Shown here piece after piece: positions 3,260 to 27,123 of a DNA stretch of 35,923 nucleotides (the stretch's first letter is position 1; every line of letters starts with the position of its first letter). The stretch is taken from assembly GCA_945897335.1 (NCBI GenBank), contig CAMDFP010000010.1, forward strand, positions 1 to 35,923, in the 5' to 3' direction. The position numbers and the translations under genes were made by a program. The stretch is from Asaia bogorensis (GTDB taxonomy: Bacteria > Pseudomonadota > Alphaproteobacteria > SHVZ01). Under the pieces are notes generated by a model that was not told the origin of the DNA, ran no database searches, and saw nothing but the letters and a program-made list of their open reading frames with translations.

Positions 3260-3334
3260 GCCGCCTTAGCTCAGTGGCAGAGCGCGTCATTGGTAATGAC
3301 GAGGTCGACAGTTCAATCCTGTCAGGCGGCACCA
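3260..3334 (+). tRNA. tRNA-Thr (anticodon GGT), CCA encoded
   Basis: A full cloverleaf can be folded by eye. The acceptor GCCGCCT pairs with AGGCGGC over 7 bp. The D arm is GCTC/GAGC, and the anticodon arm CGTCA/TGACG holds loop TTGGTAA, giving anticodon GGT. The T arm is GACAG/CTGTC with loop TTCAATC. The discriminator base is A (3331) and CCA is encoded (3332-3334). It decodes ACC and ACT. No integrase or att-like repeat is seen next to it. Confidence 0.97.
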
Positions 3335-3382: not shown

Positions 3383-5038
3383 ATGATCGAAGACATCGAC
3401 CGGCTGGAGGACAGGGCCGGCCTCGAAGCCGATCTCTGCATTGTCGGAGCGGGCGCCGCCGGCATCTCGCTGGCGCTTCAGTTCGTGTCGACCGGCCACC
3501 GGGTCATCCTGCTCGAGGGCGGAGGCACCACTTCCGACCCCGCGACCCAGTCGCTCTACGAAGGGGAGGTGGCCGACAAAAGGCTGCACGCGCCTCCTGA
3601 TCGCTATCGTCAGCGACGCTTCGGCGGCTCGACCACGATCTGGGGCGGACGCTGCATGCCCTTCGACCCGATCGACTTCGAGCCCCGTCCCTACATGGCC
3701 ATCAGCGGCTGGCCCTTCGGCCGCGAGGTGCTCGATCCTTACTACGTCCGCGCCAACGAGATCTGCGAAGCCGGTGCGTTCGCCTACACGGCGGCGACGG
3801 CTTTCCCTGACGGCATGAAGGAGATCATCGAGGGCTTCCGGAGCGAGCGGGTGAGCTCCGACACTCTCGAGCGATTCAGCCGCCCGACCGACTTCGGCCG
3901 GGTCTATGGCGGCCAGCTGGCCGGGGCCGGCAACATCCGCGTGCTCCTCAAGGCCAACGTCACCCGGCTGCAGGCCACCACCGACGGCACCCGCATCGAT
4001 CATGTCGAGGTGCGGACGCTTTCCGGCAAGCGGTTCACGGTCCGGGCCAGCCGTTTCGTGCTGGCGAGTGGCGGCATCGAGATCCCCCGCCTCCTGCTGG
4101 CGTCGAACGACGTCCATGCGGCCGGCATCGGCAACGGCGCCGATCTCGTCGGCCGCACTTACATGTGCCACGTCGCCGGCACCATGGGGACGCTGACCGT
4201 CGATCGCCCGACCTCCGCGGTCTGGCATGGCTATGAGGTTTCCGCCGACGGGGTCTACTGCCGCCGACGCCTGGCGGTGACGGCTGAGACGCAGCGGACG
4301 CTCGGGATCGGCAACATCGTCGCCCGCCTGCACCACCCGCGCATCACCGATCCGACCCACGGATCGGGCGCGCTCTCGGCGCTCTACCTGATCTTGCCGC
4401 TGATCAGCTACGAATACAGCAAGCGCTTCAAGGACGAGGATCCGGGCTCGGCCGGGCTCTGGCTCCGGCACGCCAAGAACGTCGTCACCGACGCCTTCGG
4501 GACGGCCGGGTTCCTCTTCCACATGCTGACCAAGCGGGTCCTCGCCAAGCGCAAGTTTCCCTCGGTCATCATCCACCCGAAGGTGAACCGCTTCACGCTG
4601 GAGTTCCACGGCGAACAGGAACCCAACCTTGAGAGCCGGATCACCCTCATCGGGGAGACCGATCGCCTCGGCATGCCGCGCGTCAAGGTCGACTGGCGCT
4701 ATACCTCACAGGACATCCGGACGGTCGCCGTCGCCTACGACGTCCTTGCGGAGGAGTTCGACCGCACCGGCGTCGGGCACCTCGCCTATGATCGCGAACG
4801 GGTGGAAGAGATCGCGCTTCGCGACGGCGCCTATGGCGGCCATCACCTGGGGACGGCGCGGATGTCGGCAACGCCGAGGGACGGCGTCGTCGATGCCGAC
4901 TGCCGGGTCCATGGCATCGCGAATCTCTACATCGCCGGCGGCGCCGTGTTCCCGACCTCGAGCCAGGCCAACCCGACGCTCACCATCGTTGCACTCTCGC
5001 TCAGACTCGCCGAGCACCTGAAAAACGCTCGCGGCTGA
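3383..5038 (+). CDS. GMC-family FAD-dependent oxidoreductase
   Basis: A 551-residue glucose-methanol-choline family flavoprotein, which oxidises alcohol groups on sugars or other alcohols. The N-terminal dinucleotide-binding motif is G22-A-G24-A-A-G27, followed by HRVILLEGGG, whose acidic residue binds the FAD ribose. FGGSTTIWGGRCMPF near 75-93 is the second FAD segment. The C-terminal GMC domain carries GGH487-H488-LGTARM, where a His acts in catalysis, then LYIAGGAVFPT and ANPTLTIVALSLRLAEHL. No signal peptide is evident. The gene ends at a terminator-like hairpin and is followed by the surface-polysaccharide genes in the same direction. GMC enzymes occur in such clusters, so oxidation of a glycan precursor is plausible but inferred. 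Confidence 0.92.
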   Translation: MIEDIDRLEDRAGLEADLCIVGAGAAGISLALQFVSTGHRVILLEGGGTTSDPATQSLYEGEVADKRLHAPPDRYRQRRFGGSTTIWGGRCMPFDPIDFEPRPYMAISGWPFGREVLDPYYVRANEICEAGAFAYTAATAFPDGMKEIIEGFRSERVSSDTLERFSRPTDFGRVYGGQLAGAGNIRVLLKANVTRLQATTDGTRIDHVEVRTLSGKRFTVRASRFVLASGGIEIPRLLLASNDVHAAGIGNGADLVGRTYMCHVAGTMGTLTVDRPTSAVWHGYEVSADGVYCRRRLAVTAETQRTLGIGNIVARLHHPRITDPTHGSGALSALYLILPLISYEYSKRFKDEDPGSAGLWLRHAKNVVTDAFGTAGFLFHMLTKRVLAKRKFPSVIIHPKVNRFTLEFHGEQEPNLESRITLIGETDRLGMPRVKVDWRYTSQDIRTVAVAYDVLAEEFDRTGVGHLAYDRERVEEIALRDGAYGGHHLGTARMSATPRDGVVDADCRVHGIANLYIAGGAVFPTSSQANPTLTIVALSLRLAEHLKNARG

Positions 5039-5059
5039 CCCCGTCGGCGGGGCTTATTT
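5039..5059 (+). terminator. Terminator-like hairpin after the GMC oxidoreductase gene
   Basis: CCCCG (5039-5043) and CGGGG (5048-5052) form a perfect 5-bp stem around a TCGG loop, starting right at the stop codon and followed by CTTATTTC. The stem is short but all G-C, and the T-rich tail is modest. It probably ends or weakens transcription before the wecG-wzy pair. Confidence 0.5.
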
Positions 5060-5080
5060 CCGAAGCCCTTTCGCTATATA
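5053..5080 (+). promoter_or_regulatory. Possible promoter for the wecG-wzy pair
   Basis: A clear -10-like TATATA (5075-5080) lies about 47 bp before the wecG start, in the only A+T-rich patch of the gap. The -35 side (CTTATT, 5053-5058) is poor. It would place a start site just downstream of the hairpin that ends the GMC gene. Prediction from sequence only. Confidence 0.3.
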
Positions 5081-5126
5081 CCGAAACTCACACCGCTTCC
5101 TCACGCGGCCCCGAGAGACCGACCGG

Positions 5127-5924
5127 ATGCCAGCTGCCGCCGACATTCCCGCGCTCGACTTCCTTGGCGTCCGCCTGAACGACCTCGGCGTGCGCGCGGC
5201 GGCCGAAACCATCGCCGCCCGGGCCCCCGAACTCCCCTTCGTCTACGTCATCACGCCCAACGCCCAGCACCTGGTTCGCCTGGCCCGCGGCGACGAGGTA
5301 TGGCGTCGCGCCTATGAGCGCGCCTGGCTCGTACTGATGGACGGCCGGGTGGTTCCGATGCTGGCGCGCCTGCTCTTCGGCCAGCGGCTGCCGCAGGCCT
5401 CCGGCAGCGACCTGACGGTCGAGTTAATGCAGAATCACGTCAAGCCGGACGACCCGATCGCGGTCATCGGCGGCGGCGCGGTCCTCGAGCAGGCGCTGAT
5501 CGACCGCTACGGCTTCACCCGCCTTCGGGTGCACAACCCGCCTATGGGCTTCATCCGCGATCCCGAAGCCGTTTCCGCCTGCGTGGACTTTCTCGTCGCG
5601 CATCCGGCGCGCTACGTCTTCCTCGCCGTTGGGGCACCGCAGTCGGAGATCCTGGCGGAAGCCGTCATCGCGCACGGCGGGAGCCGAGGCGTCGGCCTCT
5701 GCATCGGCAGCTCACTTCTCTTCGCGACCGGCCTGGTCAAGCGCGCCCCTCTCTGGGTGCAGAAGGCCGGCCTCGAGGCCTTCTACCGGCTGGTGCAGCG
5801 GCCGGGGACGCATTTCCGGCGGATCTTCGTCGAGTCCCTGCCGGTGATCTGGATCCTCCTGCGCGCCCGCCTCGGCGGCCCCGGCATCCTTCGGGCGGCC
5901 GGTGACGGGCCGCCCCCGCGTTGA
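5127..5924 (+). CDS. WecG/TagA/CpsF-family glycosyltransferase
   Basis: A 265-residue member of glycosyltransferase family 26. Characterised members add N-acetylmannosamine or its uronic acid to a lipid-linked sugar on the inner face of the membrane. Family landmarks are visible: T43-P44-N45 with the following AQHL, then GRVVPMLARLLFG, QASGSDL, AVIGGG, NPPMGF, VFLAVGAPQSEI, and the C-terminal GLVKRAPLWVQKAGLEAFYRLVQRP. Length is normal. It is followed at once by the polymerase gene (14 bp to its ATG, or overlapping its alternative GTG), so the two are co-expressed. It is the only ordinary glycosyltransferase in the polysaccharide region. The donor sugar is inferred from the family. Confidence 0.9.
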   Translation: MPAAADIPALDFLGVRLNDLGVRAAAETIAARAPELPFVYVITPNAQHLVRLARGDEVWRRAYERAWLVLMDGRVVPMLARLLFGQRLPQASGSDLTVELMQNHVKPDDPIAVIGGGAVLEQALIDRYGFTRLRVHNPPMGFIRDPEAVSACVDFLVAHPARYVFLAVGAPQSEILAEAVIAHGGSRGVGLCIGSSLLFATGLVKRAPLWVQKAGLEAFYRLVQRPGTHFRRIFVESLPVIWILLRARLGGPGILRAAGDGPPPR

Positions 5925-5937
5925 CGGCCCGGTCTTC

Positions 5938-7260
5938 ATGACCGCCGCCCGCCGCGGCCGCGTCGGACTCGCGGGCCTCGAGAGGGGACGCATCCTCCCG
6001 CTCTCGCAGGTCGGGGGGCGGCCGGGAGCGGCGGGCATCGGAACAGCGGGCAGCCTCCAGCAGCATGCGGGCATCCTGCTGCTGCTGACGCTGCCGCTGT
6101 TCGGGCAGCTGTTCCACTACCTGATCGATGTCGGGCCGATCTACTACCTCTCCAAGGCTTGGCCGTTCCTTACTCTGCCGCTGGCGGCCTACGCCGTCTT
6201 CCGGGTCTCGACCCCCTTCCACACCCTCTACATGTTGACCATCGCTTACGCGCTCGGCGTCACCCCGGTTCTGTCGATGGCGTGGCTCGGAAACGACATC
6301 GTCGACGCCTTCACCACGACCATCAAGGTTTGGCCGCTGACCTACTACTTCAGCATGCTCGCCGTGCTGGTGGTGCTGAAGCCGTCGCCGACGCTGATCA
6401 CGCGCACGATCCTGCAGCTCGGCATCGCCACCTACGCGATCATGTGGATTCTGTGGATCGTCGTCCCGGTCAGCTTCTATGCGAGCGACTCGACGATTTC
6501 GAAGCTTTTCATGTTCGAGAACGAGCGCGGCTACCGCATCTACATGCCGGTGACCTTCGGCATCATCATGCTTTTTTACCTGGCCAGCCGCATGGCCGAG
6601 AGGCCGCGGCTCTGGATCGTGCTGTCGTCGATCGCGATGCTCGGAAGCCTCGTCTACATCTACAAGCAGCGGCTCGCCATCTTCACAACTATCATTGTCA
6701 TCGGCTGGACCTTCGTCGCCCGGCTGCCGCTATTGGCGCGGTCCATCTTCGTGCTGCTTGGCGCTGGGATCGGTGGCGCCATGGCGATAACGGCACTTGC
6801 CAACCTCGACCGGATCACCGAGTCCCTCGGCGCCTCGCTCAGTGTCCGCCAGCATTCGATGGCACTCGTTACCCAATACCTGGTGAACGAACCTTTGCGC
6901 TGGATTTTCGGCGTCGGCGGCACTACGCGGTTCGCCAATACGACCCTGTCCGAAATCATGGGCTCCGCCAGCTTCTACCTCGCCGACCTCGGCTGGCTCG
7001 GCGTGCTCTTCGAATACGGACTGGTCGGCTCGCTGATGATCCTCAGCCTCTACATCGTCATCGTGCGGCTGCCGGCAACGGTGGAGTGGGGCGACGAGAA
7101 GGACGCGGCGATGACCAACGCGCTCCGCGCCTACGTCCTCTACCTGCTGCTGACCAGCTCGATCTACTCGGCGGTCTTCGTGCCGGGAGAGCTCGCCGCC
7201 ATCAGCGCTCTGTTCCTCTATATGCGCCGCGGGCCGGGAGCCGAGCCGCGTTCACCCTAG
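5938..7260 (+). CDS. Wzy-like polysaccharide polymerase (O-antigen polymerase type membrane protein)
   Basis: A polytopic membrane protein of 440 residues, or 452 if the GTG at 5902 is used. By eye there are about ten to twelve hydrophobic segments, starting with GILLLLTLPLFGQLFHYLI. A long soluble loop lies in the second half (about residues 270-350), as in Wzy/WaaL proteins, and contains RITESLGASLSVRQHSM and WIFGVGGTTRF. Sequence in this family is poorly conserved, so the call rests on topology, the central loop and position between wecG and wza-wzc. I prefer the ATG at 5938 because the GTG at 5902 overlaps wecG; neither has a clear RBS. Its TAG overlaps the stop of the convergent wza-like gene within a shared CTAG (7257-7260). 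Confidence 0.75.
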   Translation: MTAARRGRVGLAGLERGRILPLSQVGGRPGAAGIGTAGSLQQHAGILLLLTLPLFGQLFHYLIDVGPIYYLSKAWPFLTLPLAAYAVFRVSTPFHTLYMLTIAYALGVTPVLSMAWLGNDIVDAFTTTIKVWPLTYYFSMLAVLVVLKPSPTLITRTILQLGIATYAIMWILWIVVPVSFYASDSTISKLFMFENERGYRIYMPVTFGIIMLFYLASRMAERPRLWIVLSSIAMLGSLVYIYKQRLAIFTTIIVIGWTFVARLPLLARSIFVLLGAGIGGAMAITALANLDRITESLGASLSVRQHSMALVTQYLVNEPLRWIFGVGGTTRFANTTLSEIMGSASFYLADLGWLGVLFEYGLVGSLMILSLYIVIVRLPATVEWGDEKDAAMTNALRAYVLYLLLTSSIYSAVFVPGELAAISALFLYMRRGPGAEPRSP

Positions 7261-8024
7261 TTCGTGGTCGTCGTCGTCCGCCCCAGCGTATAGCTGAACG
7301 ACCGCTGGAAGGGCACCACGCGGTTGATGAACTGCTCGACCCACAGCCCGACTTCGGCGATGCGGGTCTTCGGCACGAACAGGATGTCGCCGGGAACGAT
7401 GCGGGGATCGTCGACGGGCTTCCCTTCCAGGAGACCGTGGACATCCACCATCTTCAGCATCGGGCGGCCGTCCGGGCTGCGGCGGATGAGGATCACTTCG
7501 CTGATCCGCCCGGTATCGGTGGTGCCGGAGGCAAGCTGAAGGGCGGAGACGGAGCCGAGCGGACCGGAGATGGGATAGGCGCCCGGCACCTTGACCTCGC
7601 CGCCGACATAGACCTTCGCCGAGATCGGATCCATGACCTCGACGATCACCTCGGGATTGCGGAGCCGCGCCAGGGCTTTCTGGGTCAGCAATGTCGTGGC
7701 TTCCGCCAAGGTGAGATCCGCGACCCGAACGTCGCCTGTCGCCCGCAGGGTCACAATGCCGTCGGGGCGGACCAGCACCTCCTGGGTCATCTCGGGCGTC
7801 AGCGGGAACAGCACCCTCAGCTTGTCACCTTCGCCGATGCGGTATCCCGGCGCGGTCTCCGACCAGGCAGCGAACCGCGCCAGCGCAGGATCGGCGGCCC
7901 GAGGATCGCCGCGGGACACCTCTGGCGAGGGCCGCGGGCTGATCGACTGGCCGGTACCGCCGCAGGCCGCGAGGACGGCGGCAAGTGCCGCGGCGAGGAA
8001 GACGTGCCGTCCGGTCAGAGCCAT
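7257..8024 (-). CDS. Polysaccharide export lipoprotein (Wza/GumB-like)
   Basis: A 255-residue outer-membrane polysaccharide export protein. A lipoprotein signal ends in lipobox L18-A-A-C21. GYRIGEGDKLRVLF, near residues 60-75, is the start of the Poly_export domain, followed by VRPDGIVTLRATGDVRVADLTLAEA. An SLBB-type segment begins at KVYVGGEVKVPGAYPISGPLGSVSALQLASG. It lacks the extra C-terminal domains of E. coli Wza, as is usual for the GumB type. The ATG at 8024 lies inside the end of the co-polymerase gene (10-bp overlap), indicating translational coupling. The longer open frame reaching upstream is only the shadow of that gene. A repeat of five Thr residues ends the protein. Confidence 0.93.
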   Translation of the reverse strand: MALTGRHVFLAAALAAVLAACGGTGQSISPRPSPEVSRGDPRAADPALARFAAWSETAPGYRIGEGDKLRVLFPLTPEMTQEVLVRPDGIVTLRATGDVRVADLTLAEATTLLTQKALARLRNPEVIVEVMDPISAKVYVGGEVKVPGAYPISGPLGSVSALQLASGTTDTGRISEVILIRRSPDGRPMLKMVDVHGLLEGKPVDDPRIVPGDILFVPKTRIAEVGLWVEQFINRVVPFQRSFSYTLGRTTTTTN

Positions 8025-10135
8025 CGGTAGATCGCTTTCGGGATGCTGAATTTGCGCCCGGTCACGACAGCTCCGAAGAGGTCGCCGCCCGCTTCGAGCA
8101 GCTGGTCGCGGAGGCGAGCCGCCACCGGCGTCCGCGTATGCTCGGCCCGCACCACCAGGATCGATCCCTCGACCGCCTTGGCGAGCCTGAGCGTCACCAG
8201 GGTCTGTCGCGCCGGCGGACTGTCGATGACGATCATCTCGTATTCGGACCGGAGACTGCCGAGGATCTCCCGCAGCGTCAGGCTGTCGATCCGCTGCCAG
8301 TCCACCGGGCCTTTGGTGGCGCCGACCGAGACCTGGAGCCTCGGCACCGAGGTCTGGGCGGTCATGATCCCGGTATTGCGCACGGGGACCGGGTCCTTGC
8401 CCTTGAACCGCTTCCAGTGATGATCGCCGTCTCCTATCAGGTCGAGGATCACGACACGCTTGTTCTGGCCTTCGGCCAGCTCGAAGGCGAGCGCGCCGAC
8501 GAAGGCCGAGCGGCGCTCGGTCCGGCTGTAGGAGACGACCTGAATCGCGGTGCCGCCGACGGCGCGGCTCTGGTTGAGCGCGAGCTGGCTCGCGAGATAG
8601 GTGATCTGCGCTCGTCCGTCCGGCGTGTTGAACCCGTCGTCCTCGGCGAAGCTGGCGAGGACCGGCAGGCCGAGCTGGCGGGTCACCTCGTCCGGCAGCA
8701 GGAAGATCCGGCGGTTCCACGACGCCAGCACCGTCAGTACACCGGCGAGGAGCATTCCGCCGATCATGGCGGCGGCGGCGATGCTCGGCCCGTTGCTCCG
8801 GCCCCGCAGCGAGGCGTCGGCGCCACCGACGACGCGGATGTTGGCGGTCCTCGATCCTGCGGACGCCTCCTCGAACAAGGCCACTTCGGTCCGCTGGCTA
8901 GCCTCCTTGTAGAGCTGCTCAAGGATCGCGCGGGACCGTTCCAAGGTCTGGAACACGCCCTCGGCGGCACGCAGCTGATCGATGCGCACCTGAGCCTCCT
9001 CGACCTGGCGGTCGAGTTCGGCGACCGAGCGCGATGCGGCGTCGGCCTCGATGCGGCGCTGGTAGAGGTTGTTGGTCATCACGTCGATCGTCGGGTTGCG
9101 CACCTCGCGGGCGGTCAAAGAGTCGCGCCGAGGCTGGCGCTTGATGTCCTCGAGCACCTGGATCTGACGGTTCACCTCCTCGAGGCGAGGCTCACTGTCC
9201 TGGTAGCGGAGCCTGAGCGTGTCGCGCTCGAGCCTGAGCTTGGTCAGCACGTTCTCGGTCTCGTCGTTGTCGACCCTGTCGGTCTTCTCGCGATAGTCGA
9301 AGACGCTTCCCGGCAGTTCCCGGATCCGCCGTTCGGTCGACTGGACCTGCCCCAACGTCGACTCGCGACGCTCCAGCATTGACTGGCGACGCTGTACGGC
9401 ACTGTCATAGGTGCGGATGGCGAGAAGGACGTCCTGCTCGAAGCTGAGGATCTTGTACTCGGCCTTCTTTGCCCGGATCTCGCTTTCGACGCCGCGCAGC
9501 TGATCGAGATAGGTTGTGGCGCGGGCGCGAAGGAAGGGCGAACGGAGGGTGCGGTAGATCTCGGTCCGTTTTTCGAGGTAGGCGTCGATGAGCGCGTTGA
9601 CTGCCGCGATCGCGACGTCGCGCGAAGGATGCTCGAAGGAGATGGTGATGAGATTCGACGTCGTCTCCGCCGCGGTGGTCAGCGACTTGAGGACGACATC
9701 GACGGTGATTTCCTGTCGCTGCTCCTCCGGGTAAGGCGGCAGCAGCCCGAAGAACCGGGCCTTGCCTACCTGCGGGTAGAGCATTTCCGGATCGACCCTC
9801 TCGACCATGGTGCGGACCACGCCGCGGTCGCGCAGCAGCTCGACCTCGGCCTGGGTGGCTCGCGCGGCATCGACCGGCAGCAGCCCCGCGCCGCCGAGAA
9901 GGCCGGCAGCGCCGGTCGCGTCACGCCCGGGGAGGATGAGGACCTGGGCCTTGGCCGTATAGAGGACAGGGCTCATGACCCATCCGGCCGCCGCCGCCGC
10001 CGCCAGGAGCAGCACGGAGGCGATGAGACGCCAGTGATAGGCGGCGATGACGACGATATCGCGGACGGAAAAAGTAGAGGCAGCGGCCGGCCGGCCCTGG
10101 CTCGGGATCGGAGCATTGGCGACGGTGACCGTCAT
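8015..10135 (-). CDS. Wzc/GumC-like polysaccharide co-polymerase with a degenerate tyrosine-kinase domain
   Basis: A 706-residue inner-membrane protein that sets chain length and couples polymerisation to export. TM1 is at about 35-54 and TM2 at about 453-475. Between them is a Wzz domain and a long coiled-coil region rich in Glu, Arg and Gln. The C-terminal ~220 residues match the cytoplasmic BY-kinase domain of CpsD/Wzc: MIVIDSPP near 636 is the Walker B-like segment. However, the expected Walker A (GEGKST-like) is replaced by SYSRTERRSAF near 535, with no lysine, and Walker A' is VVILDLIGDG. The C-terminal Tyr cluster is reduced to a single Tyr in the last few residues. The kinase is probably inactive. 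I use the ATG at 10135; a TTG at 10171 would add 12 residues. Confidence 0.9.
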   Translation of the reverse strand: MTVTVANAPIPSQGRPAAASTFSVRDIVVIAAYHWRLIASVLLLAAAAAAGWVMSPVLYTAKAQVLILPGRDATGAAGLLGGAGLLPVDAARATQAEVELLRDRGVVRTMVERVDPEMLYPQVGKARFFGLLPPYPEEQRQEITVDVVLKSLTTAAETTSNLITISFEHPSRDVAIAAVNALIDAYLEKRTEIYRTLRSPFLRARATTYLDQLRGVESEIRAKKAEYKILSFEQDVLLAIRTYDSAVQRRQSMLERRESTLGQVQSTERRIRELPGSVFDYREKTDRVDNDETENVLTKLRLERDTLRLRYQDSEPRLEEVNRQIQVLEDIKRQPRRDSLTAREVRNPTIDVMTNNLYQRRIEADAASRSVAELDRQVEEAQVRIDQLRAAEGVFQTLERSRAILEQLYKEASQRTEVALFEEASAGSRTANIRVVGGADASLRGRSNGPSIAAAAMIGGMLLAGVLTVLASWNRRIFLLPDEVTRQLGLPVLASFAEDDGFNTPDGRAQITYLASQLALNQSRAVGGTAIQVVSYSRTERRSAFVGALAFELAEGQNKRVVILDLIGDGDHHWKRFKGKDPVPVRNTGIMTAQTSVPRLQVSVGATKGPVDWQRIDSLTLREILGSLRSEYEMIVIDSPPARQTLVTLRLAKAVEGSILVVRAEHTRTPVAARLRDQLLEAGGDLFGAVVTGRKFSIPKAIYRWL

Positions 10136-10403
10136 GCCGGCAGGCTCGCAATCACGCCAAATCGCAGGCAAGCTACGAGCGGATAGCGGAAGGCCCTAAA
10201 CCCACCGCCTTCGTCGGGGCTGTACCGGAGCCGCCGCACGCCGCCACTCATCGAATTGCCCTAAACTTTCATCATTATTGATCTAAATTGGACCTTACCT
10301 ATACCTGGGCCAGCCTGCACTCGATTCGGGGATTCTGGCACCAGATTTTGTAGCAAGGACGCCTTTTGTCTCAAAGAATATCCATACCTGGGTTTTTCGC
10401 GCG
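10136..10403. promoter_or_regulatory. Divergent promoter region between the co-polymerase and flippase genes
   Basis: 268 bp, far more A+T-rich than its surroundings from about 10255 onward, separating the two halves of the polysaccharide cluster. On the plus strand TTGATC (10278-10283), 16 bp, and TATACC (10300-10305) form a plausible sigma-70 promoter toward the flippase gene. The nonamer ATACCTGGG occurs twice (10301-10309 and 10384-10392), a possible regulator site. Two GANTC methylation sites lie 8 bp apart (10323-10327 and 10331-10335). I see no small gene here. Confidence 0.45.
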
Positions 10404-11735
10404 GTGAACGGCCGATCGGCAGTTCTGCTGAACGCCATTGCCGGCCTGGCGGTTCGCGGCATCGAAGTCGCCGCCAAGCTCGCCCTCTATGTCGTCGCCG
10501 CGGCACTTCTCGGCGTCGTCGGCAGCGGCCTCCTGTTCATTGCCATGACCTGGGGGCACCTCGCCGCGACCTTGTCCCGGCTGGGCATCGAGCGCGCGCT
10601 GACCCGACTCGTCGCGGGCGACCTTGCCGTGGGTCAGGGACGAAGCGCCCGGCGGCAGATCCTGAGCGGCCTCGCCATCGTCGCCGCCACCAGCACCACG
10701 CTCGGCCTCGCCACACATCTCGCAGCCCCGATCGCCGCCGACATCCTCTTCCATGACCCGGCCCTGGCCGCCCCGCTCGCCGCCAGCGGCCTGGTCATTC
10801 CGGTCATGGCGCTCACCTTCACGCTGACCGCCATATTGTCGGGTCTCGACCGCACCTCGGCGGCGCAGATCTTCCAGAACGTCTTCTGGCCGATTGGCAT
10901 GCTGCTGGGCCTCGCGCTCGGCGCCCGCGACCCGGAAACGGTCATCCTGGCCCAGGCGACGACGATGCTCGTCGCCATGATCCTGGCGACCCTCTGGATT
11001 CTCCGGGACCGCGCCAGGCTCGTCAGCAACCAGCCGCTGCCGCCCGACATCGAGCTCCTGCCATCGCTGCCGGCAACCGCGGCACCTCTCTACGTGGTCG
11101 AGCTCGTTCAGGTCTCCATCGCCTCGCTGCCCGCCCTGATCCTCGGCGTGGTCGCCGACGCCACCGCGGTCAGCATCTTCAGCCTCGCCCAGCGCGCCTC
11201 GATGCTCGTCCACGTTGTCCTGCTCAGCCTCGGCACCGTCGCGGCCCCACGCTTCGCCGCCCTGCACCGGACAAGATCCGTATCCGCGCTCGCCCGCCTC
11301 AACCGGCAGATGCAGCTGGCGGGGACGGTGATGGGCGGCGGCGTCTGCCTGGTCCTGGCGGCGGGCGGCGGCCCGCTTCTGTCGCTGATCGGCACCAGCT
11401 TTGCGGCCGGGGCCATTCTGCTTGCGATCATGGCCGCCGGCCAGTTCGTCAGCGCCCTCTACACCGCGCAGGACATCCTTCTGGCGATGACCGGGAACGG
11501 CTCGGCTCTCCGCGTCCTTAACCTCTTGCAGCTCGGGACGATGCTGGTGCTGTCGATCCCGCTGATCACGACGTTCGGGGCCGAGGGCGCCGCCATCATC
11601 ACCGCGCTCGCCGTCGCCCAGGGCGGCATCGGGACGGCGATCGCGGCCCGCCTCCTCATCCCCGAGGCCGCCACCTTTCTCGCCCCGGCCCTTCCGGCGG
11701 CGTTCCATTCGCTGTTCAGGAGATCCGCACCATGA
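10404..11735 (+). CDS. Wzx-type flippase (MOP superfamily polysaccharide translocase)
   Basis: A 443-residue integral membrane protein with about twelve to fourteen hydrophobic helices in pairs, the pattern of the MOP exporter superfamily. These proteins flip undecaprenyl-linked repeat units across the inner membrane. The N-terminal half includes MTWGHLAATLSRLGIERALTRL, and the second half contains SIFSLAQRASMLVHVVLLSLGTVAAPRFAALH, typical of Polysacc_synt-type proteins. It starts with GTG at 10404; the RBS is weak. Its TGA overlaps the ATG of the next gene (ATGA at 11732-11735), so flippase and initiating transferase are translationally coupled. MATE-type drug export is the main alternative, made unlikely by context. 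Confidence 0.85.
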   Translation: MNGRSAVLLNAIAGLAVRGIEVAAKLALYVVAAALLGVVGSGLLFIAMTWGHLAATLSRLGIERALTRLVAGDLAVGQGRSARRQILSGLAIVAATSTTLGLATHLAAPIAADILFHDPALAAPLAASGLVIPVMALTFTLTAILSGLDRTSAAQIFQNVFWPIGMLLGLALGARDPETVILAQATTMLVAMILATLWILRDRARLVSNQPLPPDIELLPSLPATAAPLYVVELVQVSIASLPALILGVVADATAVSIFSLAQRASMLVHVVLLSLGTVAAPRFAALHRTRSVSALARLNRQMQLAGTVMGGGVCLVLAAGGGPLLSLIGTSFAAGAILLAIMAAGQFVSALYTAQDILLAMTGNGSALRVLNLLQLGTMLVLSIPLITTFGAEGAAIITALAVAQGGIGTAIAARLLIPEAATFLAPALPAAFHSLFRRSAP

Positions 11736-13183
11736 CAGCCGCATCCGCCGCCGGCCCGATGCCGCCGCGGGACAAAGCGGGTGTGCGACGATCGCTCGTC
11801 TCGCACGGCCTCATCAACGGCTGCCTCAAGGTCGGCGACGTCGCCAGCCTCGTCCTCGCCGGTCTCGTCGCGAGCCACATCGCGCCGGGCCTCACCCTCC
11901 CTCAATCCCTCCTGCTGTCGCTGGTCGCGCTGCTTCCCTTCCGCCTGATCAGCGGCAACCGGCGAGCTTATCGCTGGGACCGCTACGCCTGGCTGCTCTG
12001 GGAAGCCGTCGACGTCGCCGTCGGGCTCGCGGCCGGCGTCGCCTCGACTCTCCTCGTCCTCGCCATCTTCGGGCAGGCCGGCGCCGACCCCGAATGGGCC
12101 ATGGCTTGGTTCGTGACCGCCTTCGCCGGCACGATCGGCGTCCGGCTCGCGGTGCGCTCGGCCGCCTCCATTTTGCGCCGCCGCGGCGTGCTCACGCAGA
12201 AGGTGGCGATTGTCGGCTCCGGCTCCGAGGGCATTGCCGTGGTCGAGCAACTCACCCGCAACGAGCGTCGCAACACCTACGAGATCATCGGCATCTTCGA
12301 CGAGCGGACCGAACGCCGCGAGGAGAAGATCCACGGGATACCGGTCACCCGCGGCATCGACCGCCTGATCGAGTTCTCCCGCACCATGGCGATCGACGTC
12401 GTCGTCGTCGCGCTGCCGGTGAATGCGCGCGAGCGCATCTCCGACCTGATGAAGCGGCTGAGCTCGATCCCGGCCGACATCCTGCTGCTGATGGAGATCA
12501 ACCGCCTCGGCCTCAAGGAAGTTCGCCTTCGCAATGTCGGCGGCTATTCGTTCCTGCAGATGACCCGGCGGCCGCTGGTCGGTTCGCTCGTGCTCTTCAA
12601 GGTGATCGAGGACTACGTCGTCGCCACGATCGGGATCCTGCTCACGGCGCCGATCATGCTGGTGGCGGCGCTCCTGATCCGCCTGGATGGACCGGGGCCG
12701 ATCCTCTTCCGACAGCGTCGTGTCGGCTTCAACCATCGCGAATTCGACATGCTGAAGTTCCGCTCGATGGCGGTCGATCCGGCCGACGACGGGTCCAAGG
12801 GCACGTCGGCCAACGATCCCCGGATCACCCGGATCGGGCGCTTCATCAGAAGGACCAGCATCGACGAGCTGCCTCAGCTCTTCAACGTGCTGCAGGGACA
12901 CATGTCCGTCGTCGGCCCGCGCGCCCATGTGCCGGGCATGCTGGTCGAGGACCAGATCTACACCCAGGCCGTGATCGAGTACGCCGCCCGCCACCGGGTG
13001 AAGCCCGGCATCACCGGCTGGGCGCAGATCAACGGCATGCGGGGCGGCATCCATACCGAGGCGAAAGCGCGCCGCAGCGTCGAACTCGATCTCGAATACA
13101 TCGAGAACTGGTCGATCTGGCTCGACATCGTGATCATGGCCCGCACCGTTCTCGGCGGGCTCTGGGGCCGCAACGTCTTCTGA
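11732..13183 (+). CDS. Undecaprenyl-phosphate sugar-phosphate transferase (WcaJ/PssY-like initiating enzyme)
   Basis: A 483-residue polyprenyl-phosphate hexose-1-phosphate transferase that starts each repeat unit by placing a sugar phosphate, usually glucose, on undecaprenyl phosphate. The N-terminal third holds about four membrane helices. Next comes a Rossmann-like CoA_binding_3 region starting QKVAIVGSGSEGIAVVEQL. The conserved catalytic domain begins near 290 with FKVIEDYVVATIGILL, then GPILFRQRRVGFN, FDMLKFRSM, and RRTSID378-E379-LPQLFNVL with the catalytic Asp-Glu pair, then MSVVGPRAH and VKPGITGWAQING. All key motifs are intact and the length is normal. It sits between the flippase and the GH18 hydrolase genes. 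Confidence 0.93.
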   Translation: MTAASAAGPMPPRDKAGVRRSLVSHGLINGCLKVGDVASLVLAGLVASHIAPGLTLPQSLLLSLVALLPFRLISGNRRAYRWDRYAWLLWEAVDVAVGLAAGVASTLLVLAIFGQAGADPEWAMAWFVTAFAGTIGVRLAVRSAASILRRRGVLTQKVAIVGSGSEGIAVVEQLTRNERRNTYEIIGIFDERTERREEKIHGIPVTRGIDRLIEFSRTMAIDVVVVALPVNARERISDLMKRLSSIPADILLLMEINRLGLKEVRLRNVGGYSFLQMTRRPLVGSLVLFKVIEDYVVATIGILLTAPIMLVAALLIRLDGPGPILFRQRRVGFNHREFDMLKFRSMAVDPADDGSKGTSANDPRITRIGRFIRRTSIDELPQLFNVLQGHMSVVGPRAHVPGMLVEDQIYTQAVIEYAARHRVKPGITGWAQINGMRGGIHTEAKARRSVELDLEYIENWSIWLDIVIMARTVLGGLWGRNVF

Positions 13184-13193
13184 CGCAGATCCC

Positions 13194-14186
13194 ATGTCGG
13201 CCTTCGCGCGCTGGCTCGCTCTGACGTTCCTGCTGCTGTGGTCTCCGGCGAAGGCCGAGCCGCCTCTCCTCATGGGCTTCTATGAGAGCTGGTCGGAGCG
13301 GCCGGGCGCGCCGCCCCCGGCGACGCGGCTGGCCAACCTTCCGCAGCACCTCGACATCCTGGCGCTCGGCTTCGCCCGACCCGACCTTAGTTATTCCGGC
13401 GACAACGACCTGACCGCGACCGGTCTCGAGATGCCGTTCGGCGTCGCCGAGACGGCGGAAGCGCTCGCCCTTTTCAGGCAGCGGAGCCCGCGGACGCGCA
13501 TCTTGCTTTCGCTCGGCGGCGCAACCTACGATCGGTGGGATGCCTTTGCGCCGGAGGCCGCGGCGCGGCTGGTCGCCGCCCTCGGCATTGACGGCGTGGA
13601 TCTCGACTACGAGCCGACAGATCCCGGCTGCCACCCGCGACCTGAGCGGAATGACATCGTTTGTGAAAGCGACGCCGTCTGGGCCGAGATCATCCGGCGG
13701 ACGCGAACGCACCTGCCGCGCCCGGCGCTGGTCACCGCTCAGGCCTGGAGCGTCGGCGCCTACGGGACCGGACGTTTCGCCGATGCCGTTCCGGCCGCGC
13801 GGCATACCGGGTCGATGCTCTGGCTCGGCCGCGAAGCGGTCGCGGCGGAGCTCGATCTGGTCGCGATCATGGCCTATGGCGCCGGACGGCGTTTCGATCC
13901 GCTCCTCGCCTTCGCCGCCTACCGTGACATCTGGCCTGGCCGGCTGCTGCTCGGTGCCCGCATCGGCGGCACGGGCGGCGGCGGTCCGCCTGCGACCGCG
14001 TCGACGCTCACCAGGTACGCAAAGGAAATGGCGCGCGATCCCCGCGCCGGAGTGATGCTGTACACGCTTGCCGCCGGCACATCTCATCGACCTTCGCGGG
14101 CATCTCTCGACGGGCGGGCGGCGGTCGCTACGGTCTGCAGGACCTGGGACCGGACGGAGTGCGCGAGCCCGGTCAAGGAGCGTTGA
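13194..14186 (+). CDS. Secreted GH18-family glycoside hydrolase
   Basis: A 330-residue protein with a signal peptide (cleavage likely after SPAKA, residue 21). The TIM-barrel landmarks of glycoside hydrolase family 18 are present: ILLSLGG near 103-109 (SxGG), the catalytic D133-G-V-D136-L-D138-Y-E140 with E140 as the acid/base, and M226-A-Y228 on a later strand. Family members cut beta-1,4 bonds next to N-acetylhexosamines using the substrate's acetamido group. It starts 10 bp after the initiating-transferase gene, so it belongs to the polysaccharide operon. A role trimming or releasing an N-acetylhexosamine-containing polymer is more likely than chitin use, but that is inference. The last ~40 residues do not resemble a normal barrel end. 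Confidence 0.85.
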   Translation: MSAFARWLALTFLLLWSPAKAEPPLLMGFYESWSERPGAPPPATRLANLPQHLDILALGFARPDLSYSGDNDLTATGLEMPFGVAETAEALALFRQRSPRTRILLSLGGATYDRWDAFAPEAAARLVAALGIDGVDLDYEPTDPGCHPRPERNDIVCESDAVWAEIIRRTRTHLPRPALVTAQAWSVGAYGTGRFADAVPAARHTGSMLWLGREAVAAELDLVAIMAYGAGRRFDPLLAFAAYRDIWPGRLLLGARIGGTGGGGPPATASTLTRYAKEMARDPRAGVMLYTLAAGTSHRPSRASLDGRAAVATVCRTWDRTECASPVKER

Positions 14187-16367: not shown

Positions 16368-17177
16368 TTAGCCGACACGGAGGCCAAGCGCCGCCAGCGC
16401 CTCCCGCGTCAGCACCAGCCGCTGGTTCCCGATCCCCTCCCAGGTCGTCGCCTGCAAGAAGGTTGCAAAGGCGTAGCGGTCCCTCGGGCGCATCAGCGTG
16501 CCGACGAACCAGCCATCATAGACGTTGCCGGCCCGGCCCCCCCCGGTCTTGCCGGAAAAGACCGCCCCTCGCCCCCGCTCGATCTCCATGACCTCCTGGA
16601 CCAGTTTGGCAGTGCGGGACGACAAGCTTGTCCGACCCTCGATCAGATCGGACAATCGCTCGACCTGATCTTCGGCCGTGATCCGAAGGCTGCTGTTGAT
16701 CCAGAACCGGTCGATCCCGCCGGAGATGTCGGCATTGCCGTAGCCGATCGAGCGCAACGCCGCGCCCATGCGCTCAGGCCCTATGCGGAGGGCGACCTCG
16801 CGGAAGAACCAGACCGCCGAGACCTTGAAAGCACTCTTGACATCATGAGGACGCTTCCAGTCCTCCGGCCAGTCGGCCGCCGCCGGGTGCTTCTCCGCAT
16901 CCCAGTCGAGCCGGAAGGAGAGATCGGGGATCACGCCGACGTCGAGGGCGATGGCCGTGTTCCAGATCTTGAAGGTCGAGAACGGCGATTTCGGCTGGGC
17001 GGCGAGCTCAGGTTCGTGGCGAAGCGTCTCGCCGGTCCCGAGGTTCCGGATCACGAAGGCGGCGCCGGTGCCCGCGAGTGCGATCGACAGCGACTCTTCC
17101 CGGCTGGCCGCGACGGCGGGGCCGATGGCGAAGGCCGTCGCGCCCACGGCACCCTGCAGGATGTCTCGTCGCGTCAT
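16368..17177 (-). CDS. Class D (OXA-type) beta-lactamase-like protein with Tat-like leader
   Basis: A 269-residue serine beta-lactamase-like protein. All class D signatures are present: S67-T-F-K70 (acylated serine and carboxylated lysine), S120-A-V122, Y146-G-N148 and K210-T-G212-GG. Length is standard. The N-terminus MTRRDILQGAVGATAFAIG has twin arginines followed by a hydrophobic stretch and AVAA, which fits a Tat signal more than a Sec one. I chose the ATG at 17177 because the longer frame upstream has no homology and would destroy the leader. It is divergent from the first MlrC gene across 115 bp. Hydrolysis of beta-lactams is the family activity; the true substrate range cannot be read from sequence. 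Confidence 0.92.
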   Translation of the reverse strand: MTRRDILQGAVGATAFAIGPAVAASREESLSIALAGTGAAFVIRNLGTGETLRHEPELAAQPKSPFSTFKIWNTAIALDVGVIPDLSFRLDWDAEKHPAAADWPEDWKRPHDVKSAFKVSAVWFFREVALRIGPERMGAALRSIGYGNADISGGIDRFWINSSLRITAEDQVERLSDLIEGRTSLSSRTAKLVQEVMEIERGRGAVFSGKTGGGRAGNVYDGWFVGTLMRPRDRYAFATFLQATTWEGIGNQRLVLTREALAALGLRVG

Positions 17178-17292
17178 CACGATGAGGGTCCCCCTTCCCG
17201 CCCAATTTCCAGGGGGCGCACGGTAGACCGGGGAGCCGCCGCCGCGCCATACTGCGTTTCCTCCCTCGCCGTCCATCCCGGAGCACCCGCCC

Positions 17293-18744
17293 ATGAAGCT
17301 GTTCGTCGCCGGCATGGCGCATGAGACCAACACCTTTTCCCCCCTGCCGACCTCTAAGCGGGCCTTCGAAGAGCTGCTGGTCCGGCCGAAGACCGGCCAG
17401 GGCCTGGACCGGCTGGGCGACGCCTTCGGCTACAAGGATTTCATTCGCCTGGGCGAGCAGTCGCAGATGCAGGTGACGAAGAGCCTCTTCTGCGCGGCAC
17501 AGCCGAGCGCGCCGACCCTGCAGCGCGACTACGAGGAGCTGCGTGACGAGATCCTCGACGACCTCAAGGCTGCCATGCCGGTCGACATGGTGCTGCTGAT
17601 GCTTCACGGCGCCCAGATGGCCCAGGGGTACGACGACTGCGAGGGAGACATCATCGCCAAGGCGCGCGCCATCGTCGGCCCGAAGATTCCGATCGGGATC
17701 GAGCTAGACCTGCATGCCAACGTCACCAAGGCGATGATCGAGAACTCGACCGTGCTCATGGTGTGCAAGGAGTATCCGCACATCGACTTCGACAAGCGGG
17801 CCGAGCAGCTTTTCGACCTCTGCCTCCGCGCCCAGCGGGGCGAGGTCAAGCCGGTGATGTACAAGTTCGACGTACCCATGCTGGGCGCCTTCCCGACCAC
17901 GCGCGAGCCGCTCCGCTCCTTTGTCGACGAGACGACCGCGATGGAGGGGAAGGACGGCATCCTCTCGGTATCGCTGGTGCACGGCTTCGCCTGGTCGGAC
18001 TTCCCGGAGATGGGAGCCAGCGTCGTGATCGTCGCCGATGGCGACATGGCCAAGGCCAAGGCACTGGCGGAGACGCTGGGTAAGCGCTTCTTCGACATGC
18101 GCGAGAAGATCGAGAGCCCGCTGATCACCCTCGACCAGGCGCTCGACCAGGCTCTGGCGGAGCCCAAGGGGCCGGTGGTGATGGCCGATCGCTCGGACAA
18201 TGCCGGCGGCGGCGCGCCGGGCGACTCCACATATTTCCTGGAAGCCATGCTGAAGCGCGGCATCAAGAACGCGGCCCTGTCGATGATCTGGGATCCGATG
18301 GCCGTCCAGTCCTGCTTCGATGCCGGCGTCGGCGCCACCCTCGAGCTTCGCATCGGCGGCAAGACCGGCAAGTTCTCCGGCCACCCCCTCGACGTCACGG
18401 CGACGGTGACGGCGCTGGCCGAGAACCCGCGCCAGTTCATGTTCGGCGCGGTATCGCCGCTCGGCCGCTCGGCGGCGATCAACGTGGATGGCATCGACAT
18501 CGTGCTGAACTCGATCCGCCAGCAGACCTTCAGCCCGGAGGCCTTCTCGGAACTCGGCATCGATCCGGCGAAGCGGCATATCCTGGTGGTCAAGTCGACG
18601 CAGCACTTCCATGGCTGCTTTGCCCCGATCGCCGCCAAGATCATTTACGTCGGTGCGCCCGGTACGCTTTCGACCAACTACCTGCAGTTCCCCTACAAGC
18701 GCATGCCGAGGCCGATGGCGCCGCTCGACAAGGTGAGCCTGTAG
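17293..18744 (+). CDS. M81 family metallohydrolase, MlrC-like (copy 1)
   Basis: A 483-residue protein of peptidase family M81 (DUF1485 plus MlrC_C). The founding member, MlrC of microcystin degraders, cleaves the linear peptide products of microcystin; most relatives have unknown substrates, probably amides or short peptides. The start MKLFVAGMAH10-ETNTFSP is diagnostic. Likely zinc ligands are in E137-L-D139-L-H141-AN and YPH163-ID. DRSDNAGGGAPGDST near 298-312 and QQTFSPEAF in the C-terminal domain are also conserved. No signal peptide, so it is cytoplasmic. It is followed after 4 bp by a near-copy, and the pair probably forms an operon. Confidence 0.92.
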   Translation: MKLFVAGMAHETNTFSPLPTSKRAFEELLVRPKTGQGLDRLGDAFGYKDFIRLGEQSQMQVTKSLFCAAQPSAPTLQRDYEELRDEILDDLKAAMPVDMVLLMLHGAQMAQGYDDCEGDIIAKARAIVGPKIPIGIELDLHANVTKAMIENSTVLMVCKEYPHIDFDKRAEQLFDLCLRAQRGEVKPVMYKFDVPMLGAFPTTREPLRSFVDETTAMEGKDGILSVSLVHGFAWSDFPEMGASVVIVADGDMAKAKALAETLGKRFFDMREKIESPLITLDQALDQALAEPKGPVVMADRSDNAGGGAPGDSTYFLEAMLKRGIKNAALSMIWDPMAVQSCFDAGVGATLELRIGGKTGKFSGHPLDVTATVTALAENPRQFMFGAVSPLGRSAAINVDGIDIVLNSIRQQTFSPEAFSELGIDPAKRHILVVKSTQHFHGCFAPIAAKIIYVGAPGTLSTNYLQFPYKRMPRPMAPLDKVSL

Positions 18745-18748
18745 CTCC

Positions 18749-20200
18749 ATGAAGCTGTTCACCGCCGGGATCAGCCACGAGACCAACAGCTTCTCGCCGC
18801 TGCCCACATCCAAGCGCAGCTTCCAGGAGCTGATGATCCGCCCGAAGACCGGCCAGGGCATGGATCGGCTGAAAGACGCGGTCGGCTACGGCGACTTCAT
18901 CCGGCTCGGCGAGGAATCGCAGATGCAGGTGGTGAAGAGCCTCTACTGCGAGGCGCAGCCCAGCGCGCCGATGCTCCAGCGCGACTACGAGGAACTCCGG
19001 GACGAGATCCTGGACGACCTCAAGGCGGCCATGCCCGTCGACATGGTGCTGCTGATGCTCCATGGCGCGCATGTGGCCCAGGGCTATGACGACTGCGAGG
19101 GCGATATCGCCGAACGCGTCCGCGCCATCGTCGGCCCCAAGGTGCCGATCGGAATCGAGCTCGATCTCCACGCCAACGTCACGCAGAAGATGCTGGCGAA
19201 CGCCACGGCCCTGATGGCGTGCAAGGAATACCCGCATATCGACTTCGGCGAGCGGGCGAAGGACCTGTTCGAGCTGACCCGGCGGGCGGCGCGGGGCGAG
19301 ATCAAGCCGGTGATGGCCAAGTTCGACGTCCCCATGCTCGGCAACTTCCCGACCACCCGCGAGCCGCTCCGCTCCTTCGTCGACGAGACCGCGGCGATGG
19401 AAGGCAAGGACGGAATCCTCTCGATCTCGCTCATCCACGGCTTCGCCTGGGCCGACTTCGAGGAGATGGGAGCGAGCGTGGTCGTGGTCGCCGACGGCGA
19501 CGTCGCCAAGGCCAAGTCGCTGGCCGAGACCCTGGGCAAGCGCTTCTTCAACATGCGCGAGAAGATCGCGAGCCCGCTGATGTCGCTGGAGGCCGCGCTC
19601 GACCAGGCGGTCGCCGCGGCCAAGGGGCCGGTGGTCATGGCCGACCGTTCGGACAATGCCGGCGGCGGCGCGCCCGGGGATTCGACCTATGTCCTGGAAG
19701 CCCTGCTGAAGCGCGGCATCAGGAACGCAGCGCTGGCCATGATCTGGGATCCGATGGCGGTGCAGTCCTGCTTCGATGCCGGCGTCGGCGCCACCCTGGA
19801 CCTCCGCATCGGCGGCAAGACCGGGAAGTTCTCAGGGATGCCGCTCGACGTGACCGCGAAGGTGACGGCACTGGCGGAGACGCCGCGCCAGTTCGTATTC
19901 GGCGCCGAGGCCCCGCTCGGCCGCTCGGCTGCGATCCATGTCGACGGCATCGACGTGGTGCTGAACTCGATCCGCCAGCAGACGTTCAGCCCGGAAGCCT
20001 TCACCGAACTCGGCATCGACCCCAGGACCCGGAAGATCCTGGCGGTGAAGTCGGCGCAGCACTTCCACGCCGCCTTCGCGCCGATCGCCTCCACCATCAT
20101 CTATCTGGATGCGCCGGGGGCTTTATCGACCAACTACCTGCAATATCCGTTCAAGCGCATGCGCCGGCCGATGGCGCCGCTCGACAAGGTGACCCTGTAG
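18749..20200 (+). CDS. M81 family metallohydrolase, MlrC-like (copy 2)
   Basis: A second M81/MlrC protein of exactly the same length, 483 residues, aligning without gaps to copy 1. By eye about 80% of residues are identical. All likely metal-site residues are kept (GISHETNSFSP, ELDLHAN, KEYPHID, DRSDNAGGGAPGDST). Differences cluster at about 110-180 (KAMIEN versus QKMLAN; DKRAEQLFDLCLRAQ versus GERAKDLFELTRRAA), which may alter substrate preference. The start codon lies 4 bp after the copy 1 stop, with AAGGTGAG just inside the end of copy 1 as RBS. This is a fairly recent tandem duplication kept in frame and intact. Confidence 0.92.
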   Translation: MKLFTAGISHETNSFSPLPTSKRSFQELMIRPKTGQGMDRLKDAVGYGDFIRLGEESQMQVVKSLYCEAQPSAPMLQRDYEELRDEILDDLKAAMPVDMVLLMLHGAHVAQGYDDCEGDIAERVRAIVGPKVPIGIELDLHANVTQKMLANATALMACKEYPHIDFGERAKDLFELTRRAARGEIKPVMAKFDVPMLGNFPTTREPLRSFVDETAAMEGKDGILSISLIHGFAWADFEEMGASVVVVADGDVAKAKSLAETLGKRFFNMREKIASPLMSLEAALDQAVAAAKGPVVMADRSDNAGGGAPGDSTYVLEALLKRGIRNAALAMIWDPMAVQSCFDAGVGATLDLRIGGKTGKFSGMPLDVTAKVTALAETPRQFVFGAEAPLGRSAAIHVDGIDVVLNSIRQQTFSPEAFTELGIDPRTRKILAVKSAQHFHAAFAPIASTIIYLDAPGALSTNYLQYPFKRMRRPMAPLDKVTL

Positions 20201-26163: not shown

Positions 26164-26227
26164 TAGCCCAATCACCGCAAGGGTTTGCAGGTCATGAATG
26201 TCCTGCCGTTACGACGTTGCAGCCGGG

Positions 26228-26340: not shown

Positions 26341-26343
26341 GAG

Positions 26344-27042: not shown

Positions 27043-27064
27043 AGCCTCGCTTCCAGCGACCGAC

Positions 27065-27092: not shown

Positions 27093-27123
27093 ATCATCGC
27101 CGCGACGGGCGCAGCCGGTGGCA

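Follow-up and report, generated by a model that had tools for sequence, protein, structure and literature searches.

The holdfast polysaccharide of Caulobacter (hfs) and promonan (prm), a polysaccharide of Sphingomonas sp. LM7, are the closest described counterparts of the system presented here. Holdfast synthesis starts with a WcaJ/HfsE-type initiator followed by HfsJ, a glycosyltransferase (GT) of family GT26, and uses Wzx/Wzy export, and GlcNAc and 3-O-methylglucose are reported as holdfast sugars (PMC6372794, PMC8449245, PMC11340318). HfsJ is thought to act on undecaprenyl-pyrophosphate-linked glucose (Und-PP-Glc), and the second sugar was left open (PMC11340318). The promonan locus, according to the same source, brings together genes for a WcaJ-type initiator, a WecG/TagA GT, Wzx, Wzy, Wza, Wzz/CapB, and hydrolases, and its authors predicted that a secreted GH16 enzyme shapes the polymer (PMC11340318).

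Here, we describe a locus that shares with both systems a WcaJ/HfsE-type initiator, a GT26 enzyme, and Wzx/Wzy export genes. It occupies positions 3383 to 14186 of contig 10 (CAMDFP010000010.1) of an Asaia bogorensis assembly (GCA_945897335.1; 5.0 Mb, 442 contigs, 95.8% complete). The window, by which we mean the whole stretch of DNA that was analyzed, is 35,923 bases long and has a GC content of 63 to 70%. The reading that we favor, and to which we give about an even chance of being correct, is that the locus directs the synthesis of a polymer with a disaccharide repeat, composed of a hexose and one GT26-added, probably N-acetylated sugar; the chain would be trimmed by a GH18 hydrolase, and it would usually be O-methylated in relatives and here perhaps oxidized.

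Gene content of the locus

Eight genes were found at 3383 to 14186. They form three units, namely, GMC-wecG-wzy on the plus strand, wzc-wza on the minus strand, and wzx-pgt-gh18 on the plus strand, as follows.

3383..5038, plus strand: GMC-family FAD oxidoreductase (PF05199, 3.5e-26; signal peptide not seen by eye)
5127..5924, plus strand: WecG/TagA-family (GT26) glycosyltransferase (PF03808, 4.2e-27), the sole GT found in 3383-14186 besides the initiator
5902..7260, plus strand: Wzy-type polymerase with a WaaL-like O-antigen ligase/polymerase fold (start GTG 5902 or ATG 5938)
7257..8027, minus strand: Wza-type polysaccharide export lipoprotein with Poly_export and SLBB domains (PF02563, 9.2e-17; PF10531; PF22461)
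8015..10171, minus strand: Wzc-like co-polymerase with a degenerate bacterial tyrosine (BY) kinase domain (start TTG 10171 or ATG 10135)
10172..10403, no strand: divergent intergenic region of 232 bp between wzc-wza and wzx-pgt-gh18, the presumed promoter region
10404..11735, plus strand: Wzx-type flippase (PF01943, 7e-8)
11732..13183, plus strand: WcaJ/HfsE-type polyisoprenyl-phosphate hexose-1-phosphate transferase, the initiator (PF02397, 2.1e-65)
13194..14186, plus strand: secreted GH18 glycoside hydrolase (PF00704, 9.7e-6; intact DxxDxDxE)

By its gene content, the locus encodes a putative complete Wzx/Wzy-dependent polysaccharide system. Specifically, the set includes a phosphoglycosyl transferase (PGT) initiator, a flippase, a polymerase (by predicted fold only), a polysaccharide co-polymerase, and an outer membrane polysaccharide export protein. 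The initiator scored 421.9 bits with TIGR03023, above the cut-off of 410.75, and its gene was the only Bac_transf match in the whole genome; similarly, the wza gene was the only Poly_export match in the whole genome, and its product carried a lipobox-like LAAC, as read by eye. The 232-bp divergent gap contained one sigma-70-like match versus 0.7 expected, which is chance level.

An original prediction, made from the sequence of the window, had listed an initiator, a flippase, a polymerase, a co-polymerase, an export lipoprotein, a GT26 enzyme, a GH18 hydrolase, and a GMC enzyme at this locus, and all of these were present there. It had also placed the GH18 gene in the operon. This gene, which starts 10 bp past the end of the initiator gene, does belong to the wzx-pgt-gh18 unit, but the locus consists of three units and not one operon.

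Occurrence of the module in other Alphaproteobacteria

When 116 relatives were searched with the GT26 protein, three strong orthologues (52 to 59% identical) were identified, and 12 further genomes contained only distant GT26 proteins. Five genomes of the same genus (77 to 97% complete) yielded no GT26 match at E 1e-10. An initiator scan kept 80 loci, six of which had the gene set: these were from Xanthobacter tagetidis, a Rhizobiales metagenome-assembled genome (MAG), two Stella species, Ancylobacter moscoviensis, and a Xanthobacteraceae MAG. The other 74 were not module loci, and they included a 4.7-kb contig of another Rhizobiales MAG (L020; G and L numbers are our genome and locus handles) that had only the initiator and GH18 genes and was not counted. 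A Wzy profile detected 12 of 385 genomes of the class at E 1e-30; with the divergent genome G049 set aside, 11 carried the module proper. Loci L130 and L021 share a contig and were counted once, and the Stella contig of L021 is, judging by its length, also that of G186. Thus defined, the module core was found in 15 other alphaproteobacterial loci, or 16 distinct loci with the window, and the same gene set that the original prediction proposed to look for in relatives was indeed there.

Homologues of the PGT, GT26, Wzy, Wza, and Wzc proteins were present in all 16 loci, and Wzx was present in 11 (10 of the 15 others). In three genomes (G321, G240, and G140), the genes formed a single tight operon in the order wzx-pgt-(gh18)-fkbM-wzc-wza-wecG-wzy, and tight operons of seven to eight genes with no other GT were seen in L133, L134, and L135. 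The pairwise distances of the core proteins were correlated (r of 0.74 to 0.95, the species tree not being controlled for), which would fit co-inheritance. One locus of the set had an unusual junction: in L099 (G039; positions 6209 to 8646), the genes for the initiator and the co-polymerase are each truncated at the 5' side, the two truncated ends meet, and wzx was not found. Either a deletion or an assembly error would account for this junction; in G264, which belongs to the same genus, wzx, the initiator gene, and the co-polymerase gene were all present.

Glycosyltransferases near the module and elsewhere in the genome

The original prediction stated that the locus has only one GT besides the initiator, and this was true within 3383 to 14186. 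Additional GTs in module stretches were sought with a GT2 profile built from seven and a GT4 profile built from six matches in the host genome. As a control, the GT2 profile found 28 of 30 GT2 loci, and it found 30 of 30 once hits had been added, at which point the test was no longer independent. Independently of the control, the profiles picked up a GT2 gene in L182 and, in L181 and L182 together, three GT4 genes. No GT2 or GT4 match was obtained at E 0.01 in 20 module stretches that covered 378,868 bases, some of them more than once. Among the module genes, the noncore open reading frames (ORFs) scanned with Pfam encoded FkbM methyltransferases, in G046 a Methyltransf_24 protein, and in Stella (L021) a carbamoyltransferase; a single ORF was without a match. 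In L019, two ORFs among the module genes look like NadB and NadC by eye. A conserved extra neighbor in the relatives was considered as a candidate for the missing holdfast GT2 pair and was rejected, as its Pfam match was to FkbM methyltransferases.

The window does contain a TPR/GT41 protein at 33384 to 35585, which is 19 kb from the module and for which a comparison with six relative loci gave no homologue. This protein is OGT-like and possibly functions in protein glycosylation.

Elsewhere in the host genome, 12 GT2 and 11 GT4 matches were obtained at E 0.001, and these genes bear on an alternative that we consider unlikely, though worth weighing: the module might be the assembly half of a pathway resembling that of the holdfast or the unipolar polysaccharide, with distal GTs adding further sugars to give a longer repeat. 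The distal GTs might then be shared with lipopolysaccharide (LPS) synthesis or differ between species. There is a precedent for this arrangement, since in Caulobacter HfsJ acts together with HfsG and HfsL, and the repeat is predicted to have at least four sugars (PMC6372794). In nine other module genomes, GT2 matches were either over 100 kb away from the module or on a different contig (the module contigs of G346 being just 3 and 7 kb).

To evaluate the distal genes, 18 GT2/GT4 proteins of the host were compared with four module genomes, G346, G174, G048, and G264; the GT4 matches fetched were 6 of 12 for G264 and 6 of 7 for G048, and G046 was outside this sequence comparison. One protein, the GT4 of L104, had reciprocal best hits at 54 to 57% identity in all four genomes, and the other 17 each lacked a hit of at least 40% in one or more of them. 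The L104 GT4 was present in 45 of 60 genomes searched (the host included), among them all five congeners without a GT26 match, and no copy was detected in G046, which has the module. Given this distribution, a partnership between the L104 GT4 and the module is unlikely. A 266-amino-acid GT2 (L102) had reciprocal best hits (50 to 56%) in three of the four module genomes; its best NCBIfam match was to an ArnC-type model, far below the cut-off, and it is a possible partner of the module.

The longer-repeat alternative thus draws on the number of distal GTs and on the L102 GT2, but the module stretches had no GT2 or GT4 match, the only GT orthologous across the four module genomes is widespread without the module, the module Wzy was confined to the 12 of 385 genomes noted above, and the module GT26 forms a separate clade (in a tree without HfsJ). 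The comparison lowers the case for distal GTs and does not remove it. As for the check that the original prediction named, the rest of the genome, none of the compared distal GT2/GT4 proteins tracked the module, within a comparison of 18 proteins from these two families. The very simple repeat that it proposed gained support in that the one-GT core recurred in 15 other loci without a GT2 or GT4 match and that none of the 18 proteins behaved like a partner.

The GH18 hydrolase and the second sugar

The GH18 protein carries a signal peptide, as read by eye, and its motif, DGVDLDYE, was conserved: D133, D136, D138, and E140 were invariant in eight of eight rows. A profile of the protein matched chitinases, and its predicted structure matched the GH18 structure 6k7z in Foldseek (E 1.5e-11); there was no NCBIfam match. 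GH18 was present in 13 of the 16 loci (missing from those of Stella vacuolata, G048, and G140), and its gene adjoined the initiator gene in all 13. Strong matches (E below 1e-100) were obtained in 9 of the 385 class genomes, all nine being among the 12 Wzy-positive genomes; four of these (G000, G039, G046, and G186) had contributed a row to the query alignment, and five were independent. Two weaker matches lay in 1,500-amino-acid ORFs, in G264 and in G167, the latter not being Wzy positive.

The GH18 mechanism requires an N-acetyl group on the cleaved sugar. For this reason, the second sugar of the repeat is probably an N-acetylhexosamine. The original prediction had argued in the same way, and an intact, co-inherited GH18 supports its argument, by inference from sequence.

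It is also conceivable, though rather improbable in our view, that the GH18 enzyme targets something else, such as peptidoglycan, chitin, or the polymer of a neighbor, and that the polymer contains no N-acetylated sugar. The initiator and the GT26 enzyme might then yield a hexose-only disaccharide; GumM, a GT26 member, adds glucose to Und-PP-glucose in xanthan synthesis. The three loci without GH18 and the presence of other hydrolases in related exopolysaccharide (EPS) loci (GH44 in L136 and GH10 in L181) are consistent with this possibility. The position of the GH18 gene beside the initiator gene wherever it occurs and the confinement of the nine strong matches to Wzy-positive genomes argue for a function in the module instead, and in the promonan system, a hydrolase of the locus was predicted by the authors to cut its own polymer (PMC11340318).

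The initiator, the GT26 enzyme, and the first sugar

The GT26 profile matched the TagA structures 7mpk, 5wb4, and 5wfg, and the T-P-N stretch and the next Asp of the protein aligned with TagA. Residues N45 and D72, an Asn and an Asp that we take to be catalytic, were invariant in 10 of 10 proteins. In a tree that did not include HfsJ, the module GT26 proteins formed a single clade of 15 rows (support 100/99), apart from 16 other GT26 proteins; the L019 protein from the Rhizobiales MAG, which was gapped in the alignment, was left out of this tree. A search for viral copies of the module GT26 confirmed none.

The identity of the first sugar can be approached through published complementation data. 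When a Caulobacter strain devoid of its own initiators was given those of a panel of Alphaproteobacteria, holdfast was restored in every case, and the enzymes were read as making Und-PP-Glc (PMC11340318). Because of this panel result, a hexose is favored as the first sugar, with glucose the most likely. The original prediction of a hexose in the repeat is therefore favored as well, by inference from the family. In the same report, WecG-family members of three groups replaced HfsJ, and E. coli WecG and PrmH did not (PMC11340318). The claim that the GT26 enzyme adds a ManNAc-like sugar does not follow from family membership, since the family includes HfsJ (PMC11340318).

Polymerase and co-polymerase

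The Wzy protein had no match in Pfam or NCBIfam, and a profile of 10 homologues matched no PDB sequence. For its predicted fold (pLDDT 74.5), the sole PDB match under E 0.001 was the WaaL O-antigen ligase 7tpg (E 8.1e-5, probability 1.00). This result could mean that the protein is a ligase and not a polymerase, in which case the product would be a short oligosaccharide placed on a lipid or on LPS. The ligase structure was the only significant fold match and no Wzy family model matched, but Wzy and WaaL proteins are considered structurally alike in fold, and in all 16 loci the gene is accompanied by genes for the co-polymerase and the Poly_export lipoprotein, as would suit an exported chain. 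We regard a ligase as highly improbable and refer to the protein as Wzy.

The Wzc-like protein also had no Pfam match, and its matches to TIGR03007 (2e-20) and TIGR01007 (2.5e-9) were both under the cut-off. The Walker A motif (G-x4-G-K-[ST]) was absent from the kinase domain in 17 of 17 proteins, including those of the window and of the divergent G049 (the L019 and L099 proteins being partial). The BY-kinase-like domain may thus be a conserved apparent pseudokinase with a structural role.

Modifying genes

An FkbM methyltransferase accompanied the module in all 15 other loci (14 by similarity and G046 by Pfam), and no FkbM gene was found in the module of the window. Methylation, on which the original prediction was silent, is thus represented by the most regular modifying gene of the relatives. 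The host genome had three FkbM genes elsewhere, which were considered as relocated module partners and rejected, as two were only 26 and 29% identical to the module FkbM and the third had no match at E 1e-6. TPR proteins lie near FkbM genes on contigs 193 and 265, as judged by eye. In Stella sp. ATCC 35155 (L021, 7678 to 9393), a carbamoyltransferase gene lies between wzx and the initiator gene, and the polymer of that strain may be carbamoylated.

The GMC oxidoreductase showed a different distribution. No homologue was detected at E 1e-10 in the stretches examined of the 15 other module loci, and close homologues were found in five other genomes of the 385. Four of these were in polysaccharide loci; in the fifth genome (G013), the contig was 4.3 kb and its context was not readable. 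The G193 locus (L181) had GT26, GH10, two GT4 genes, and an epimerase nearby; the G096 locus (L182) had GT2 and GT4 genes and an aldo/keto reductase nearby, with Wzc- and WbaP-like genes by eye; the G231 locus (L184) had a PGT and Wzz; and the G049 locus (L136) had GT26, GH44, Wzy, Wzx, and PGT genes. The GMC homologues in L181, L182, and L184 are candidates for a sugar oxidase that acts in EPS synthesis. That the GMC enzyme oxidizes a sugar, as the original prediction suggested, is plausible here given the polysaccharide context in four of five other genomes, but the enzyme is accessory, being present in 1 of 16 module loci.

A proposed pathway

In the proposed pathway, the WcaJ-type enzyme would place a hexose phosphate, most likely glucose phosphate, on undecaprenyl phosphate, and the GT26 enzyme would add a single second sugar, probably an N-acetylhexosamine, as the chemistry of GH18 suggests. 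By analogy with their families and, for Wzy, by fold, Wzx would flip the disaccharide, Wzy would polymerize it, and the Wzc-like protein and Wza would export the chain. The secreted GH18 enzyme would cut or trim the chain during or after export, a role like the one predicted for the secreted GH16 enzyme of promonan. In the relatives, FkbM, and in one Stella also the carbamoyltransferase, probably decorates the unit; here, where the module lacks FkbM, the GMC oxidoreductase may oxidize a sugar instead.

Several observations weigh against a disaccharide repeat assembled in this way. The Wzy model is of moderate confidence, and the structure that it matched is that of a ligase. No Wzx gene was detected within the stretches examined of five loci (those of the Rhizobiales MAG, G039, G048, G174, and G346). 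The GT profiles cover GT2 and GT4 only, and the GT41 protein of the window was not flagged by them; in addition, four GT2/GT4 matches of the host (contigs 18, 100, 174, and 322) were missed by the profiles and stood outside the comparison, and the GT2 and GT4 genes elsewhere in the genome count on the same side. The holdfast GT genes are themselves at separate loci (hfsJ, CC_0095; hfsL, CCNA_02360) (PMC11340318, PMC6372794). Finally, the PF00704 match of the GH18 protein (25.9 bits) is below the Pfam cut-off of 29.6, and GH18 is not essential, because it is missing in three of 16 module loci.

A broader proposal, which we advance tentatively and consider somewhat less than an even bet, is that the module represents an undescribed family of polysaccharides, patchily distributed in Alphaproteobacteria, whose repeat of a hexose and an N-acetylhexosamine would be the smallest that a heteropolymer can have. 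Such a family would combine an invariable set of six or seven core genes and export by a kinase-dead co-polymerase with a modifying enzyme (FkbM, carbamoyltransferase, or GMC oxidase) that is swapped on one backbone.

Other genes in the window

A tRNA-Thr gene at 3260-3334, 48 bases upstream of the GMC gene, was the only RNA element found in the window. No stretch of this tRNA of at least 12 bases was repeated within the window; thus, an island at the tRNA gene was not supported. Downstream of the module, a class D beta-lactamase-like protein is encoded at 16368 to 17333 (PF00905; NF012161 at 156.6 bits, below the cut-off of 250). Two adjoining M81/MlrC-like metallopeptidase genes lie at 17293 to 20200, genes for solute-binding proteins come next, at 20964 and 22619, and the region 24823 to 27801 has adjoining genes for an ATPase of the flagellar/type III secretion type, a CtrA response regulator (NF045991, above the cut-off), and an Hpt protein.

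Comparison with known systems

No description of a one-GT Wzx/Wzy module with GH18 was recognized in the open-access literature searched. A disaccharide capsule has been reported, but it is made without Wzy and hence offers no precedent (PMC11641403). A related locus outside the module proper is that of G049 (L136, 3638 to 18409), which has a GMC enzyme that is 58% identical, as well as GT26, Wzc, Wza, Wzy, Wzx, and PGT genes. It differs in having GH44 in place of GH18, a DUF6492 protein, and an epimerase, and its Wzy is only 31% identical. By gene content, L136 appears to be a hydrolase-swapped cousin of the module.

The individual proteins also have relatives in well-known pathways. TagA and WecG, of wall teichoic acid and enterobacterial common antigen synthesis, belong to the same family as the module GT26; they take Und-PP-GlcNAc as the acceptor. 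Like the bacterial tyrosine kinase co-polymerases of the Wzc and ExoP type, the module co-polymerase has a chain-length domain fused to a BY-kinase-like domain, but unlike them, it has no Walker A motif (0 of 17).

With regard to the holdfast system, the module initiator scored 324.6 bits with the HfsE model NF050817, short of the cut-off of 750. Holdfast synthesis also needs HfsG and HfsL, with GT genes at separate loci, whereas the GT26 gene of the module sits inside it (PMC6372794, PMC8449245, PMC11340318). By the two features tested, i.e., the HfsE score and the lack of a nearby GT2 gene (a distal GT2 being possible), the module does not appear to be a member of the holdfast family, and it is rare in the class (11 of 385 genomes if the divergent G049 is not counted). 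The promonan locus has four further GT2 genes, GH10 and GH16 hydrolases, and a predicted six-sugar repeat (PMC11340318); in contrast, the module has no GT2 match and carries GH18.

If our reading is correct, the module would be a simple system in which to study the specificity of alphaproteobacterial GT26 enzymes, a question left open in PMC11340318, and a model for the diversification of a backbone through the exchange of one modifying gene. The promonan and holdfast systems use several GTs, which makes their products hard to predict, whereas the repeat of a one-GT core should be predictable from two enzymes.

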